The notes below the pieces were generated by a model that was given only the letters and a program-made list of their open reading frames with translations, was not told the DNA's origin and made no database searches. Shown piece after piece: positions 29,508-46,598 of a stretch of DNA of 64,000 nucleotides. The stretch covers positions 1 through 64,000 of IMG/VR virus record IMGVR_UViG_3300046007_009543, one strand, 5' to 3'. Position 1 is the first letter of the stretch. Each line of letters starts with the position of its first letter. Made by a program: the position numbers and the translations under genes. The DNA is from a virus.

Positions 29508-30194
29508 TTAATCTCTAACTTCTTCGTAAATTCTAAGAATTTCTTCTACTATTTCATGACGATGATTTTTCTTTAATGAGATTGTTCTAACACCTTTTAC
29601 TCTTGCATCTAAAATATCAAAAAATCCAATACCAGAATCTCTTTTACTTTTTAGATCTACTTGCGAAATATCACCACAAAATACAATTTTACCCCCTTTA
29701 CCTAAACGACCTAACATCATTTCGGTTTGTGAGTGTGTTATGTTTTGACATTCGTCTACAATAACAAATGATTTAGGAAACGTTCTACCTCTCATAAATG
29801 CAAAAGGTACAATTTCTATTTGACCATCTGCTACTAATTTATCTATTTTTATTTTATCATATAGAAGATATAAGTTAGAATAAATAGGTGCTAACCAAGG
29901 ATCCATTTTTTCTTTTAAATCACCTGGTAAGAAACCAATTTCTTCTTTAGATACAGTTGGTCTTGTAATAATGATTTTTTCCATTTCTTTTTTAAAAACC
30001 ATATCTAAAGCTATTTGACAAGCTAATAGTGTTTTACCTGAACCAGCCATACCTTTTATAAGTGTTACAGGATTATCTAAAATTATCTGCTTGGCTTCTT
30101 TCTGTTCTGAATTTAATTCGATTTTGAATTTGATTGGACCTTTTGGTTTGGTTTTATTTTTAAAAACCTCGTCGTCATGTTTTGGTGGGTTCAT
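29508..30194 (-). CDS. phoH: PhoH-like ATPase
   Basis: 228 residues. Walker A GMAGSGKT at 48-55, ITRPTVSKEEIGFLPGDLKE at about 76-95 (the signature PhoH stretch), Walker B VIVDECQN at 144-151, and SGIGFFDILDARVKGVRTIS near the end. PhoH is a P-loop ATPase related to the RNA-binding/RNase-associated PhoH proteins, common in marine phages. Its role is unclear; it is not proven to concern phosphate. It lies between the head genes and neck genes and ends at a strong terminator. Confidence 0.9.
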   Translation of the reverse strand: MNPPKHDDEVFKNKTKPKGPIKFKIELNSEQKEAKQIILDNPVTLIKGMAGSGKTLLACQIALDMVFKKEMEKIIITRPTVSKEEIGFLPGDLKEKMDPWLAPIYSNLYLLYDKIKIDKLVADGQIEIVPFAFMRGRTFPKSFVIVDECQNITHSQTEMMLGRLGKGGKIVFCGDISQVDLKSKRDSGIGFFDILDARVKGVRTISLKKNHRHEIVEEILRIYEEVRD

Positions 30195-30218: not shown

Positions 30219-30797
30219 TTATTTATCATTTTTCCATAACCATACATAACCATGAGCTGTTTTAGCTCTACCGTTTAATACGTTATTAACACCGTTATAA
30301 ACATCATTTGCTTCACTACTACTTAACCATTCTTTAATTAATATTCCATCTTTTAATTGCAAACATGGTTTTCTATTAGATTCAGCTCGTTTTATAACAT
30401 ATTCTTGTGGTTGTTTTTTTCCTTTCATAGAATTTGGTTTTCCTTTATTTGATTTGCTAATATTTTGTTTTCTTAATTCATTATCTTTATATCCGGTAAC
30501 TTTTTTATTTTTACTTATTAATTTTTTAATTTCATCATCATGAAAATCCGGTCCTCCTCCTCCTTTATTTTTATTTAAAAGAATAAACCCCCACATTTTA
30601 AATTGAGATATCCAATATTTTTCCCAAAATTTCCATTCTTTTATATCTACAACATCTATTATTTCTAAAATAGTTTTTTTACCAAATGTTCTTTTATGAT
30701 TATTTATTCTATCCTTAATATTGTTTGTTTTTCCAATATAAAAAGGTATATTGTCATCATTATGTAAAAAATAAATATTTACCGTTTTTATTTCCAT
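30219..30797 (-). CDS. GIY-YIG homing-type endonuclease
   Basis: 192 residues. Residues 7-24 (NIYFLHNDDNIPFYIGKTNN) carry the GIY-YIG core (here YFLH/FYIGKT) with IKDRINNHKR, followed by KYWISQFKMWGFILLN. The middle holds NUMOD-like DNA-binding units (SKSNKGKPNSMKGKKQPQE) and the end SSEANDVYNGVNNVLNGRAK then HGYVWLWKN. Similar free-standing endonucleases (T4 Seg family) spread between genes. It overlaps the 3' end of the decarboxylase-like gene by 10 bases, so its insertion did not break that gene. Confidence 0.85.
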   Translation of the reverse strand: MEIKTVNIYFLHNDDNIPFYIGKTNNIKDRINNHKRTFGKKTILEIIDVVDIKEWKFWEKYWISQFKMWGFILLNKNKGGGGPDFHDDEIKKLISKNKKVTGYKDNELRKQNISKSNKGKPNSMKGKKQPQEYVIKRAESNRKPCLQLKDGILIKEWLSSSEANDVYNGVNNVLNGRAKTAHGYVWLWKNDK

Positions 30798-31504
30798 TTT
30801 ATTTTTATTAACTTATCCAAACCAGCCTCAACATGGGTGTGATCCTCTTGACATAGTTCAAAATCAAAGCGCTTATCTAAAGGTAATATTAATTCTGTTT
30901 GACTACCCCAACGCACTAACCCAAATCTATCGTTTTGTGAACATATATCTTGTTGTTTTTTAAATGAAGATATAACATTTACATCTTCATCAGCTATTAA
31001 ACACATATTATATTGATATTCTAAAGAAAGTGAATTTATTTTTATTTTCATTCTTTCATTATTTTTAAGATATTCTAGATTTGCTGGGTTAATTTTACCG
31101 TTAAAGATATCTTTTTCGGTTGCTAACATAGGCTTATTTGTTGATTCTATTGCCTCTAAATATTCATAATCAATAACACCACCATATGGAATTCTTATAA
31201 TGTGAGGATCATAAAATGACATAAATATACCAACAACTAAAGATGGTTTGTTATAATCTTTATCACCCATTGCATCTTGTAAAGTATAATTTATACCTTT
31301 AATTTCCACAATAGGTTCAGTAGGATCATTAATTACTTTTTGATATAAGATAGTTCCATCAGCTGGTGAATAAAAATGTTCATTATCAATATACATTGTT
31401 CTTAAAGGATCTCTAAAGAAAAATTGATTTGATAATTGTTCAATAGACATTTTTTCAGCCTTTTTTACATCTGTATTAATCCAGTCTTTTAATGTTTTAG
31501 CCAT
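30788..31504 (-). CDS. Phosphatidylserine decarboxylase-like pyruvoyl enzyme
   Basis: 238 residues. HFYSPADGTILY at 43-54, FMSFYDPHIIRIPYGG at 94-109 and RFGLVRWGSQTELILP at 193-208 line up with the three conserved blocks of phosphatidylserine decarboxylases: Asp49, His101 and the Gly200-Ser201 self-cleavage site that makes the pyruvoyl cofactor. Family members convert phosphatidylserine to phosphatidylethanolamine at membranes or decarboxylate related substrates. No membrane helix is obvious. Start overlaps the stop of the DDAH-like gene by 1 base, so the two are coupled. The true substrate is unknown; the fold assignment is the firmer part. Confidence 0.75.
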   Translation of the reverse strand: MAKTLKDWINTDVKKAEKMSIEQLSNQFFFRDPLRTMYIDNEHFYSPADGTILYQKVINDPTEPIVEIKGINYTLQDAMGDKDYNKPSLVVGIFMSFYDPHIIRIPYGGVIDYEYLEAIESTNKPMLATEKDIFNGKINPANLEYLKNNERMKIKINSLSLEYQYNMCLIADEDVNVISSFKKQQDICSQNDRFGLVRWGSQTELILPLDKRFDFELCQEDHTHVEAGLDKLIKIKWK

Positions 31505-32418
31505 TATATTAATGATTTAGTATAATCAACATAATTTAAGTGCATTACACAGCATGATAACATAGCACCTGATTTCATATATTCTGATAAATTGAATATA
31601 ACTGGTTCTAAACCTTCATTAGCGCATATTCTTTCTAATGTATCTATTTTATGTTTTTCTAACTCATATAAAGGATCAGTACGTTTTAATTCTGAAATGT
31701 TAGATGCACATAAAATCATATTTCCCATTCTTACTGAATTTGTTAATCCACCAAAAGCATCATCAACACTAATATCAATAATTTCTGTATATTTTCCTAT
31801 TTCTTCTAATTCTTCAGGTGTAAATAATTCAGTACAAACTAATGTTTTTTTATCAGTTAATGGAAATACTGAACAATCTAAATGATATAAATAAGGTTCA
31901 ACCATTTCTATTTTAATAATATTCATATCAAAGTTTTGTTCCATCCACTCATAAGCTTCTTTAGTTGAACGTTGACCGTATCCACCTATGTAAGTGTTAC
32001 CACCAATGTATTTTAAATCTGCTTCACCTTCCCATTTAAATGGACATAGATGAGTATTATAACCCATTAAATTAAAGAACGGTTTTGCTACTAATTCTTC
32101 ACCTTGTCTAGGTTCGGAAGTAAAATTGGATAATAACACAATATTATCGTCTTTAATGTGGGGTAATTGCATTCCCACATTAGCCACGTAAACTTGGTCT
32201 TGATAATCACCATACGATGGTAATAAATAAACTAAAGAACCACCAGCTATAAAATTATATAAATCCATAAACTGTTTATAAGCTTTAGGTTTATTAATTT
32301 TTAAATCTTCGGGTGATAATTCTTCCATCCAAATATTGTTTGGATTTTCAGTGCTTAGAGAAAAGGGGAAGTTTAATACATAACTTGGAACCTTTAATTG
32401 TGAAGGGGTTTCTATCAT
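31504..32418 (-). CDS. DDAH / amidinotransferase-superfamily enzyme
   Basis: 304 residues. DQVYVANVGMQLP at 74-86, then LSNFTSEPRQGEE, FKWEGEADLKYIGG at 127-140, YHLDCSVFPL at 178-187 with catalytic-type His179, SVRMGNMILCASN, and SGAMLSCCVMHLNY at 283-296 with catalytic-type Cys289 or Cys290. This is the pentein fold of dimethylarginine dimethylaminohydrolase, amidinotransferases and related guanidine-modifying enzymes. The catalytic pair looks intact. It sits alone after the major capsid gene with a terminator between, and is coupled to the decarboxylase-like gene. Substrate cannot be read from sequence. Confidence 0.8.
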   Translation of the reverse strand: MIETPSQLKVPSYVLNFPFSLSTENPNNIWMEELSPEDLKINKPKAYKQFMDLYNFIAGGSLVYLLPSYGDYQDQVYVANVGMQLPHIKDDNIVLLSNFTSEPRQGEELVAKPFFNLMGYNTHLCPFKWEGEADLKYIGGNTYIGGYGQRSTKEAYEWMEQNFDMNIIKIEMVEPYLYHLDCSVFPLTDKKTLVCTELFTPEELEEIGKYTEIIDISVDDAFGGLTNSVRMGNMILCASNISELKRTDPLYELEKHKIDTLERICANEGLEPVIFNLSEYMKSGAMLSCCVMHLNYVDYTKSLI

Positions 32419-32559: not shown

Positions 32560-34293
32560 TTAGATAGTGTTTAAACCACTAACATAGATTTTCGCGTAGA
32601 ATTCAGGTCTTAACATTTTCTTAGCGTAACGAGTTAATAGACCTTTTCTTGGAGTGAAAGTTTCTGGATCGTACACTAACGGAGTCATGATTAACGGAAT
32701 GTACGGAGCAAATACAGCACCTGTTTCTAGGAACTGACTACCTCTGTAACCCATTAACATCAAATTCTCAGTCATGTAAGGATTTTTGTAAACCTTGTAA
32801 CGACCGTTTACAGTACCAATTTTTTGTACACCGAAAGCATATTCCATTTGATCAGCTTCACCATTGCTTGTAGAAGCAAATCCTGGGATTGATTCTAAGA
32901 TAGTAGCTACTGTTGGAGAAGTTACGATAAAATTAGCACCTCCACGTAAAGTTAATTGGTGGATTTTGTTGCTTAATTTTTGGATTTTAGTACCTAAAGT
33001 TTGGAACCATTGACCTTGAGTGTTATAATAACCTGAAGTTCCTAAGTTAGTTATAGTACCTTGGGTTGAAATAGTTTGGTTGTTAATTGCTGACCAGTAT
33101 TCAGTACCAGCTGCAGCATCTTCGATTAACATTTCTAAGATTTCTAAGTCAATTTCCATTGAAATATACTCACTCATGATGTTAGTTAATTCAGCTTCAG
33201 CATCAATGTTTTGGTAAGCACTTAAATCTTGAGCGAACTCAGGAGTCCATACAGCTTTTAACTTTTTAGTTTTAGCAGTGATGGCTTGTGATTGCATTTT
33301 AACATTAATTTCTGGGATTACGATGTTTGAACTACTTAAAGAGTTAGGTACAGATACGTCTGTTCTATCTGCTTCGAAATCAGCTCTAGCATCATTACCA
33401 GATAATGTACTACTGTTATTACCTTTGTTATAGAAAATAGTAGCAGAAGCACCGGCAGTATTATTAGCACCTAAAGTAGCTGAAGCTGTATAGAAGAAAC
33501 TAATAGTTCCTGCTGTATAGTTATAAGTTGTAAACTGAGGTAAAATATTAGAAGCAGTAAATGTAGAACCAGATACTAAAGTGAAACCTCTTACTGCATC
33601 TGGATCAAAGTTAGTTAATACAGAAGCTGTAGCAACAGTTACTTTGTATATTCTGTTTGCAATTACTGATGCTGAATATTCAGAATCAAAATTTAATTCA
33701 GCCCATGATGCTGTAACTACTGAACCAGTACCAGCACCAATAGTAGGTAAAACACCACCAGCAGTAGATCCAGTTAATGGAACAGAAGCTGAGAATTGGT
33801 TAGTAGAGTAAGTAAATTTGTTTGCTGGGTTGTATAAACCGCCTTCAGCTGCTGGAGTAGCAAATGGATATTGACCAGAAGCATTTCTGTTACCATATAA
33901 AGAAGAACCTGCAGTAAATGGATTTTTGTTGTTTCCGTATTGGAAATCTAAGAAGAATACTAAACCAGAAGGCATGTTCATTGGTTGAACAGAAACGAAT
34001 TCTTTAGCTACGATAGTTCCGAATACTTTTCTTACTAATGGTAATGCAATACCAGCCCAGTTTTCACCTTGTGTACCAGAAGTGAATCCAGAGTTTGAAG
34101 CAACAGTGTTAGTTTCTGTTACTAATTGTTTTGCTTGGTTTTCTAATAAAAGGGACATATTGTTACTGTCCACAGTAGTTAAGCCTTCTAATAGACCTGT
34201 TTTAGTCCATTTAGAAGCTAATTTAGCAGCATCACTTTGTAGTGATTTCCAGTTTCCTGCTGCGCTTTCTAATAATTGATGTACGTTTGACAT
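32560..34293 (-). CDS. Major capsid protein, gp23-like
   Basis: 577 residues against 521 in T4. After an N-terminal prodomain comes NQAKQLVTE at 52-60 and then TNTVASNSGFTSG, with KEFVSVQPMNMPSGLVFFLD and FQYG farther on, the gp23 signature (T4: V-Q-P-M-N-S-P-T-G). The C-terminal part has LYNKIHQLTLRGGANFIVTS-like and MGYRGSQFLETGAVFAPYIP blocks. Candidate protease cuts of the (I/L/V)-x-E type are LLE9, LLE36, LLE51 and VTE60; the last corresponds to the place where T4 gp23 is cut. Flanked by scaffold upstream and terminator downstream. Confidence 0.9.
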   Translation of the reverse strand: MSNVHQLLESAAGNWKSLQSDAAKLASKWTKTGLLEGLTTVDSNNMSLLLENQAKQLVTETNTVASNSGFTSGTQGENWAGIALPLVRKVFGTIVAKEFVSVQPMNMPSGLVFFLDFQYGNNKNPFTAGSSLYGNRNASGQYPFATPAAEGGLYNPANKFTYSTNQFSASVPLTGSTAGGVLPTIGAGTGSVVTASWAELNFDSEYSASVIANRIYKVTVATASVLTNFDPDAVRGFTLVSGSTFTASNILPQFTTYNYTAGTISFFYTASATLGANNTAGASATIFYNKGNNSSTLSGNDARADFEADRTDVSVPNSLSSSNIVIPEINVKMQSQAITAKTKKLKAVWTPEFAQDLSAYQNIDAEAELTNIMSEYISMEIDLEILEMLIEDAAAGTEYWSAINNQTISTQGTITNLGTSGYYNTQGQWFQTLGTKIQKLSNKIHQLTLRGGANFIVTSPTVATILESIPGFASTSNGEADQMEYAFGVQKIGTVNGRYKVYKNPYMTENLMLMGYRGSQFLETGAVFAPYIPLIMTPLVYDPETFTPRKGLLTRYAKKMLRPEFYAKIYVSGLNTI

Positions 34294-45257: not shown

Positions 45258-46598
45258 TTAATTTTTATTTACCAAACTTTCTGCTACATAAATTCCATGT
45301 GCACCACTAACAGTTATCCCGCGCGCTGATAAAGCATCACCTACAAAATGTACATTTGGATATTCATTTAATGATAAATCTGTGTAATTTACTAATGGTT
45401 CAGGAGATAAGTATTTTACTTCAGGAATATACATTCCCCAATCATCTCCAAATTCAAATATTTTATTCATATCTTCAATGAATTTTTCTATATGTTCAAA
45501 ATAACCACCCATAGCATTTCTAATATTATCTAGTGAATGTTCAGATATTTCCCAAGCTGATACTGTTGTACCTTCTGATGTTAATCCTGGTTTACGAGTC
45601 ATATTAGGTGAGTAATATAATCCTGTTTTATTGGCTTGACATGATTCTACTACCTTTCTTGACCATTCAAACGGATTTTCAATACCTTTAATTTCCATTA
45701 AAATACCAAAATTGGTCATATCGTTTCTAAATTCCTCACCTTTTTTAGCATGACCATTGTAACTAATATCACCATATGTTTCTTCAACAGCTACATAAGC
45801 TGCATTATTGTTAGTACAGAATGATCTTAAAGATACATTATCAAACTTCTGATATAGTTTAAAATCATAACTTATATCAATTAATTTTTGAAAATATTTT
45901 TGTGGTGCTTCAAAACGTACTCCAATTTGAACTGATTTAGGTTCATTAGGTAATTTATAATCATTAGCTAATTTTTGAGCAAAATCAATACCTGATTTGC
46001 CTACTGCAAATATTAAAGTATCATAATGGTGAGTATCAAAATGTTCTCCTTTTTCGTTTATCCATTTACCATAACATGTTCCTCCAGTAAATAGAGGATC
46101 ATCATTATTAAAATCAATCTTAATTATTTCAGTCCCCCAATGAAAATCTACTCCTTTATCAACTAAATATTGATACCATGCTTTAGCAATTTCATGTAAA
46201 TAATTTGAACCTATATGCCATACAGGAAACATTCTTAAACCAAAATATGGTTTAATAAAATCAGGTTCTGTTTGTGGATCTGACATAAATATTTCTTCTG
46301 GTTTTGGGTGGAAACGTCTAAAGTTACTAATAACTTGATCCATCAATTCCATAGCTTTTTCCTCACCACAATATTTTGCTAATTGACCTCCGATTTCTGT
46401 GTGGTAAGTTAATTTACCATCTGACCATCCTCCAGCTCCTAACATACCTGTCATTACCTCTTCAGGTAAGCGGTTATGTGGGTCATTACCTTTATCGATA
46501 ATTGTGATTAACTCTCCAGGATAACCATTATCTACTAATTTAGTAGCAGCATTAATACCTGCTACACCGGCTCCTATAATTACTATTTTTTTATCCAT
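45258..46598 (-). CDS. FAD-dependent dehydrogenase, COG2509-like
   Basis: 446 residues. Dinucleotide-binding IIGAGVAGINAATKLV at 6-21, LGAGGWSDGKLTYHTEIGGQ at about 54-73 (the COG2509 'GxxxxSDGKL' mark), LIFAVGKSGIDFAQ, QIGVRFEAP, and FVGDALSARGITVSGAHGIY near the end, matching the second FAD-binding block (GD-x-x-x-x-RG). COG2509 proteins are bacterial FAD oxidoreductases of uncertain substrate. No obvious neighbour pathway. Preceded by a terminator/ncRNA region, followed by the HNH gene. Confidence 0.8.
   Translation of the reverse strand: MDKKIVIIGAGVAGINAATKLVDNGYPGELITIIDKGNDPHNRLPEEVMTGMLGAGGWSDGKLTYHTEIGGQLAKYCGEEKAMELMDQVISNFRRFHPKPEEIFMSDPQTEPDFIKPYFGLRMFPVWHIGSNYLHEIAKAWYQYLVDKGVDFHWGTEIIKIDFNNDDPLFTGGTCYGKWINEKGEHFDTHHYDTLIFAVGKSGIDFAQKLANDYKLPNEPKSVQIGVRFEAPQKYFQKLIDISYDFKLYQKFDNVSLRSFCTNNNAAYVAVEETYGDISYNGHAKKGEEFRNDMTNFGILMEIKGIENPFEWSRKVVESCQANKTGLYYSPNMTRKPGLTSEGTTVSAWEISEHSLDNIRNAMGGYFEHIEKFIEDMNKIFEFGDDWGMYIPEVKYLSPEPLVNYTDLSLNEYPNVHFVGDALSARGITVSGAHGIYVAESLVNKN

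Follow-up and report, generated by a model that had tools for sequence, protein, structure and literature searches.

What do two coupled enzyme genes do beside the major capsid gene of a T4-like phage? The window examined here, a stretch of 64,000 nucleotides (positions 1 to 64,000 of IMG/VR record IMGVR_UViG_3300046007_009543), carries on its minus strand an ArgZ-like putative arginine dihydrolase of the pentein fold (304 aa, 31504-32418) and a pyruvoyl decarboxylase of the phosphatidylserine decarboxylase (PSD) fold (238 aa, 30788-31504; PF02666, E=5e-21), proposed below to be an ornithine decarboxylase. The two genes are coupled through a TAATG stop/start overlap (31502-31506, minus strand), in which one base is common to the stop and start codons. 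The first-pass annotation had reported both reading frames and their one-base overlap, which we confirmed, and had placed the pair between the capsid gene and PhoH. The upstream neighbour is indeed the major capsid protein gene gp23 (32560-34293, minus strand; PF07068, E=3e-77), but a GIY-YIG homing endonuclease (30219-30797, minus strand; PF01541, E=2e-5; phrog_314 homing endonuclease, E=3e-10) separates the decarboxylase gene from that of the PhoH-like ATPase (29508-30194, minus strand; PF02562, E=3e-61). The homing endonuclease is missing at this position from most relatives; in one contig (L004), a related GIY-YIG homing endonuclease (1904-2661) is located between both enzyme genes. The 171,684-base contig G001 represents the same T4-like phage in circularly permuted form, and is essentially identical to the window phage across 94.7 kb.

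The pentein matched no Pfam family at E<=1. It matched the NCBIfam Arg_dihydro model (NF052232) at E=1.9e-19, with 70 bits against a cut-off of 450, and the NCBIfam dimethylargininase model was also matched significantly (88 bits against a cut-off of 300). Judged by sequence, the protein is a relative, and not a member, of the curated NF052232 equivalog. ArgZ/AgrE proteins were the only matches with credible E-values in a PDB sequence search. When the AlphaFold model of the pentein (pLDDT 81.6) was submitted to Foldseek, ranks 1-13 were all taken by ArgZ/AgrE structures (E 7e-17 to 1.2e-14), with DDAH at 1.5e-10, a range of 3e-9 to 1e-7 for amidinotransferases and agmatine deiminases (6e-8 for agmatine deiminase), and SxtG, HsvA and AGAT far below ArgZ.

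His179 (codon 31882-31884) is invariant in 45 homologues, and Cys289 (31552-31554) is present in every row that reaches that column. The nucleophile had initially been given as Cys289 or Cys290; since position 290 is not conserved (M, L or N), Cys289 is the nucleophile. Furthermore, Asn22, Asn71, Arg90 and Arg139 of AgrE align with phage Asn28, Asn80 (32179-32181), Arg104 and Arg150, all of which are invariant in the 45 phage and bacterial sequences. Asn71 of AgrE is reportedly needed for dihydrolase activity, a role in line with the title of PDB entry 6juz, which names a trapped intermediate in ArgZ N71S. In ArgZ and DDAH, two arginines hold the alpha-carboxylate of the substrate, and the DDAH of Pseudomonas aeruginosa has the acidic residue Asp66 where ArgZ has Asn71. 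In 45 of 45 sequences, the residue at that column was Asn and not an acidic one. DDAH was rejected as an identity based on this Asn, the score under the curated cut-off and the weaker fold match, and amidinotransferase on the missing Pfam match and the low rank of amidinotransferase structures relative to ArgZ. Taken together, sequence and predicted structure suggest that the pentein is very probably an arginine hydrolase. It resembles ArgZ/AgrE (Synechocystis Sll1336 and Anabaena Alr4995) in fold, in the Cys/His residues, in the counterpart of Asn71 and in both carboxylate-binding arginines; however, identity is only 20-23%, the phage protein falls under the curated family cut-off, and it stands alone with a decarboxylase as partner, whereas the dihydrolase domain of ArgZ/AgrE is fused to an ornithine cyclodeaminase.

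With regard to the decarboxylase, Asp49, His101 and the self-cleavage site Gly200-Ser201 (codons 30902-30907, minus strand) are invariant in 40 homologues. Asp49, Asp99, His101 and Ser201 align with Asp90, Asp142, His144 and Ser254 of Escherichia coli Psd (PMC7952604). The first-pass description of two catalytically intact enzymes is borne out. The decarboxylase shares with the PF02666 enzymes E. coli Psd and PsiD both the fold family and the Asp/His/Gly-Ser self-cleavage apparatus, but it departs from the lipid enzymes in several respects. Within the PSD-like proteins, QIAD(Y/E)DVxxI replaces QIAGLIARRI, so that an invariant acidic D172-x-D174 stands where canonical PSDs have G-L-(I/V)-A-R-R, and GSQ replaces GSR (or GST). 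They lack an N-terminal hydrophobic segment and have a net charge of -3 to -19. The best 19-residue hydropathy within the first 60 residues is -0.21 in the window protein versus 1.1-2.2 in canonical short PSDs, a comparison that speaks to short PSDs only because the long-form E. coli Psd scores 0.2-0.6. The E. coli lipid enzyme relies on amphipathic helices at its N-terminus as well as on acyl contacts, and accepts neither serine nor phosphoserine (PMC7952604). Against curated PSD models, the window protein reached at best 80 bits versus a cut-off of 183. Six of eight operon genomes additionally encode, at a separate place, a canonical PSD that scores far higher against PF02666 (145-211 bits), and all nine PSD-like copies in these eight genomes adjoin an ArgZ-like gene. 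The top Foldseek match of the decarboxylase model was PsiD (E=2e-3), an L-tryptophan decarboxylase showing that a PF02666 enzyme is able to act on a free amino acid; this structural support is weak, and it is biased, as PDB entries contain the lipid PSDs as split chains. The PSD-like protein appears, with high confidence, to be an amino-acid rather than a lipid decarboxylase. Of the enzyme types first suggested, a pyruvoyl-type decarboxylase and a guanidine-modifying pentein were upheld, while the DDAH/amidinotransferase label gives way to arginine dihydrolase, the best match.

The pair is coupled in about 100 aquatic T4-like IMG/VR contigs, and the recurrence of an identical one-base overlap in most of these independent contigs is far beyond chance. 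Among the 87 contigs whose length allowed a check, 85 have gp23 upstream, and PhoH follows the pair directly in nearly every contig that was listed. In an annotated phage collection, the decarboxylase matched 45 records and the pentein 46, from the same two host groups: all were Campylobacter phages (Fletcherviruses, among those matches that we examined) or Bacteroides DAC phages. A search of viral contigs with a DAC protein yielded no match. Both genes are adjacent in Bacteroides phage DAC19, matching the window enzymes at 9e-66 and 9e-42, although at E<1e-4 the two phages otherwise have almost nothing in common: matching head, tail and DNA polymerase genes are absent, and other matches are confined to GroEL/ES, dUTPase, a reductase and a few more. 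Fletchervirus carries the two genes tens of kilobases apart. Its homologues show 33-41% identity to the window proteins over nearly their full length, and its pentein is the best-matching protein in the whole genome comparison with the window phage (2e-63). The PSD-like gene is encoded by all Fletcherviruses (PMC8713573). The pair, initially called unusual in a T4-like phage, is therefore the rule in this clade and occurs in three phage lineages. The genes are currently labelled as lipid and amidinotransferase genes in cultured phages, and PHROGs lists phrog_12670 and phrog_12759 as 'unknown'.

In gene trees, the phage pentein sequences call for two or more label changes on branches with good support, and the decarboxylase is compatible with a single phage group; the joins of DAC19, Fletchervirus and Saprospiraceae are unsafe because of long branches. 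Each of the three phage lineages has a homing endonuclease directly next to or within the enzyme pair (GIY-YIG in the window and in L004, Hef as gp084 of NC_015464, and HNH as DAC19_245, L108 16811-18331), and such endonucleases may have helped the module to spread.

Several other genes of these phages were noted. The complete phage genome G001 encodes QueC, a QueD-like protein (PTPS), a radical-SAM protein and GTP cyclohydrolase I (67832-68734, 70016-70483, 70480-71262 and 73985-74662 in L123), which likely form a preQ0 pathway that provides 7-deazaguanine for the phage DNA, and QueC is also present in two related contigs. A tightly packed region at 84-97 kb of G001 (L124), with a DegT aminotransferase, an NAD epimerase, a TylF-like methyltransferase, two glycosyltransferases and a transketolase-like protein, is probably a glycan or sugar-modification cluster. 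GroEL (80201-81811 of G001; E=1e-154 to DAC19) and its GroES-sized neighbour (79887-80195) are among the few further genes common to the window phage and the otherwise unrelated DAC19. In DAC19, an IMP dehydrogenase/GMP reductase family gene (DAC19_247, L108 18907-19881) lies three genes after the pair and could possibly change the guanine pool. The window also carries an FAD/NAD-type oxidoreductase (45258-46598, minus strand; phrog_12409 dehydrogenase) matching Fletchervirus gp008 (E=2e-25) and not DAC19, and self-comparison revealed many diverged direct repeats (78-91% identity) within long ORFs at 17.7-25.8 kb.

The pair is also found in bacterial chromosomes. When genomes were scanned with the pentein alignment, 36 loci emerged; one of them (L139) is evidently a phage contig. 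Among the other 35, a PSD-like gene adjoins the pentein gene in 28, in the opposite gene order in all but one. The hosts include Verrucomicrobia, Pseudonocardiales, Xenorhabdus, Glomeribacter, Latescibacterota, Caulobacteraceae, Acidobacteria, Saprospiraceae and more, and the operon pairs of Verrucomicrobia, Actinobacteria, Xenorhabdus and others show about 50% identity. A scan of Pseudonocardiaceae found the PSD-like gene adjacent in 17 of 19 pentein loci (four of the 19 already counted in the first set); the extra pentein copies at L247 and L252 have a GNAT-like gene downstream and no decarboxylase neighbour. This conservation, with the coupling in about 100 phage contigs, agrees with the earlier suggestion of a single metabolic unit, and the occurrence in Fletchervirus, Bacteroides DAC phages and bacterial operons answers where else the pair is found. 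Whether it has spread as a module among unrelated phages while also serving as an operon for a new arginine-to-putrescine route in many bacteria is, in our estimate, evenly balanced.

Two of the seven loci without an adjacent PSD-like gene are truncated or broken contigs (L169 and L171), and five are cyanobacterial. In all five cyanobacteria, whose genomes contained no PSD-like gene, a PLP decarboxylase adjoins the ArgZ-like gene. It is a fold III protein (Orn_Arg_deC) in Tolypothrix, Xenococcaceae, Dulcicalothrix and Cylindrospermum (L143/L144/L152/L156), and a fold I Orn/Lys/Arg decarboxylase in Spirulina (L174; PF01276, E=1.7e-77). The fold III proteins have lysA as their best curated model, well under its cut-off, and contain NDGVYG/NDGIYG/NDGIFG and GPTCDS/GVTCDS/GATCDS motifs; we take the TCDS type to be the pattern of ornithine decarboxylases and not of diaminopimelate decarboxylases (CES). 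A scan of 386 cyanobacteria and 391 genomes of one order for more PLP variants returned only the already known loci. That three unrelated decarboxylases occupy one slot argues more strongly than any other finding for a basic amino acid as the substrate of the PSD-like protein.

Based on these data, we propose, with a probability of roughly 0.6, that the pair constitutes a translationally coupled route from arginine through ornithine to putrescine, in which the second enzyme is an ornithine decarboxylase of the PSD fold; the exact order of the steps is held with the same degree of belief. In the first step, a stand-alone dihydrolase would convert L-arginine to L-ornithine, CO2 and two NH3, as suggested by family, fold and residues. 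Cys289 and His179 would carry out the chemistry, Asn80 would enable the second hydrolysis, and Arg104 and Arg150 would hold the substrate carboxylate. In the second step, the PSD-fold protein would cleave itself at Gly200-Ser201 to form a pyruvoyl group and decarboxylate ornithine to putrescine, with the acidic region of Asp172/Asp174 standing where lipid PSDs have the Gly...Arg-Arg segment; this step is deduced from the motif for self-processing, from the gene neighbourhood and from the replacement of the protein by PLP decarboxylases. The weakest step is the last, in which the diamine would add to the polyamine available for replicating DNA, for translation or for neutralising the charge of packaged DNA, and we regard such a benefit to the phage as about an even chance. 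Growth of T4 and T7 is slower when the E. coli host is deficient in spermidine, phages encode pyruvoyl-dependent ornithine and arginine decarboxylases that evolved from AdoMet decarboxylase, and no phage arginase was found (PMC9992855). A longer phage polyamine pathway was rejected, as no match to AdoMet decarboxylase (PF02675) or spermidine synthase was detected in the four phages examined. Adjacency to gp23 was also discarded as evidence for a role in packaging, since in Fletchervirus and DAC19 the genes are situated among replication genes or at other places. The observations that run counter to this proposal include the exporters beside bacterial operons, the distance between the Fletchervirus genes, the negative result for AdoMet decarboxylase and spermidine synthase, and the weak Foldseek match of the decarboxylase model. 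In addition, three cyanobacterial clusters carry an agmatine-deiminase-like pentein that the proposed pathway does not need.

That extra pentein would fit a reverse order of reactions, in which a PSD-fold arginine decarboxylase makes agmatine and the pentein hydrolyses it to putrescine or N-carbamoylputrescine. However, the window pentein retains Arg104 and Arg150, which correspond to the holders of an alpha-carboxylate that agmatine lacks, it is much less like agmatine deiminases (6e-8) than AgrE/ArgZ (7e-17), and the cyanobacterial PLP partner bears motifs like those of ornithine decarboxylases. We consider this order unlikely, even though arginine decarboxylases are among the known phage pyruvoyl enzymes (PMC9992855). 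Similarly improbable is that the pair makes or tailors another small molecule, derived from citrulline, ornithine or an amidino compound, which phages use against or inside the host and which is possibly an exported signal or a precursor of an antibiotic or siderophore. Many bacterial operons are accompanied by an ABC or MATE exporter, so what these operons make may leave the cell and be either a derivative of putrescine or a different metabolite; the Cylindrospermum locus includes a condensation-domain gene, and the patchy distribution is typical of accessory metabolism. Yet the phage copies have no common exporter or further tailoring gene, and the three interchangeable decarboxylase families all indicate a basic amino acid.

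Remodelling of membrane head groups during infection, by a true phosphatidylserine decarboxylase together with a DDAH or amidinotransferase, would suit the PF02666 membership, the intact D-H-S/Gly-Ser motif and the Fletchervirus annotations. It was rejected as very unlikely: the decarboxylase is acidic, stays far below the curated PSD cut-off and has no membrane helix of the kind by which the E. coli enzyme works (PMC7952604), a canonical PSD is encoded separately in most of the operon genomes checked, and no CDP-alcohol phosphatidyltransferase was found in the four phages. Of the substrates first offered, arginine and polyamines thus survive and lipid head groups do not. The least probable alternative is DNA base hypermodification, with decarboxylation and amidine chemistry acting on a modified guanine. 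In its favour, the genes of the window phage include those for FolE, QueD, QueC and a radical-SAM protein, and deoxyinosine replaces dG in Fletchervirus DNA according to PMC8713573, which cites Crippen 2019. This link was dropped because DAC19 and Fletchervirus keep the pair while lacking QueC, and the IMP dehydrogenase/GMP reductase gene is only in DAC19; moreover, the pair is also chromosomal in bacteria.

In comparison with known systems, the arginine-to-putrescine route proposed here is reminiscent of the phage ornithine and arginine decarboxylases derived from AdoMet decarboxylase (Li et al. 2023, PMC9992855), which are likewise pyruvoyl enzymes proposed to feed putrescine synthesis; those belong to PF02675, whereas the window pair has no PF02675 member and adds a coupled arginine-to-ornithine enzyme. 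The Fletchervirus 'amidinotransferase' and 'phosphatidylserine decarboxylase' are homologues of both window genes, but they are annotated separately and are unlinked, and none of the papers found presents them as a single pathway. We found no paper treating both gene families together with Campylobacter phages and no description of a PSD-family ornithine decarboxylase, although absence from the literature searched does not prove novelty. A two-enzyme arginine-to-putrescine operon in many bacteria has apparently been undescribed so far. If our assignment is true, the pair would contain the first ornithine decarboxylase of the PSD family and the first arginine-to-ornithine step in a phage, thereby adding another lineage of pyruvoyl enzymes to putrescine synthesis and supplying the step that phages seemed to miss. 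The gene pair would then be reassigned from lipid, amidinotransferase or 'unknown' labels to polyamine metabolism, and 'psd' calls in surveys of viral auxiliary genes may not mean lipid metabolism.
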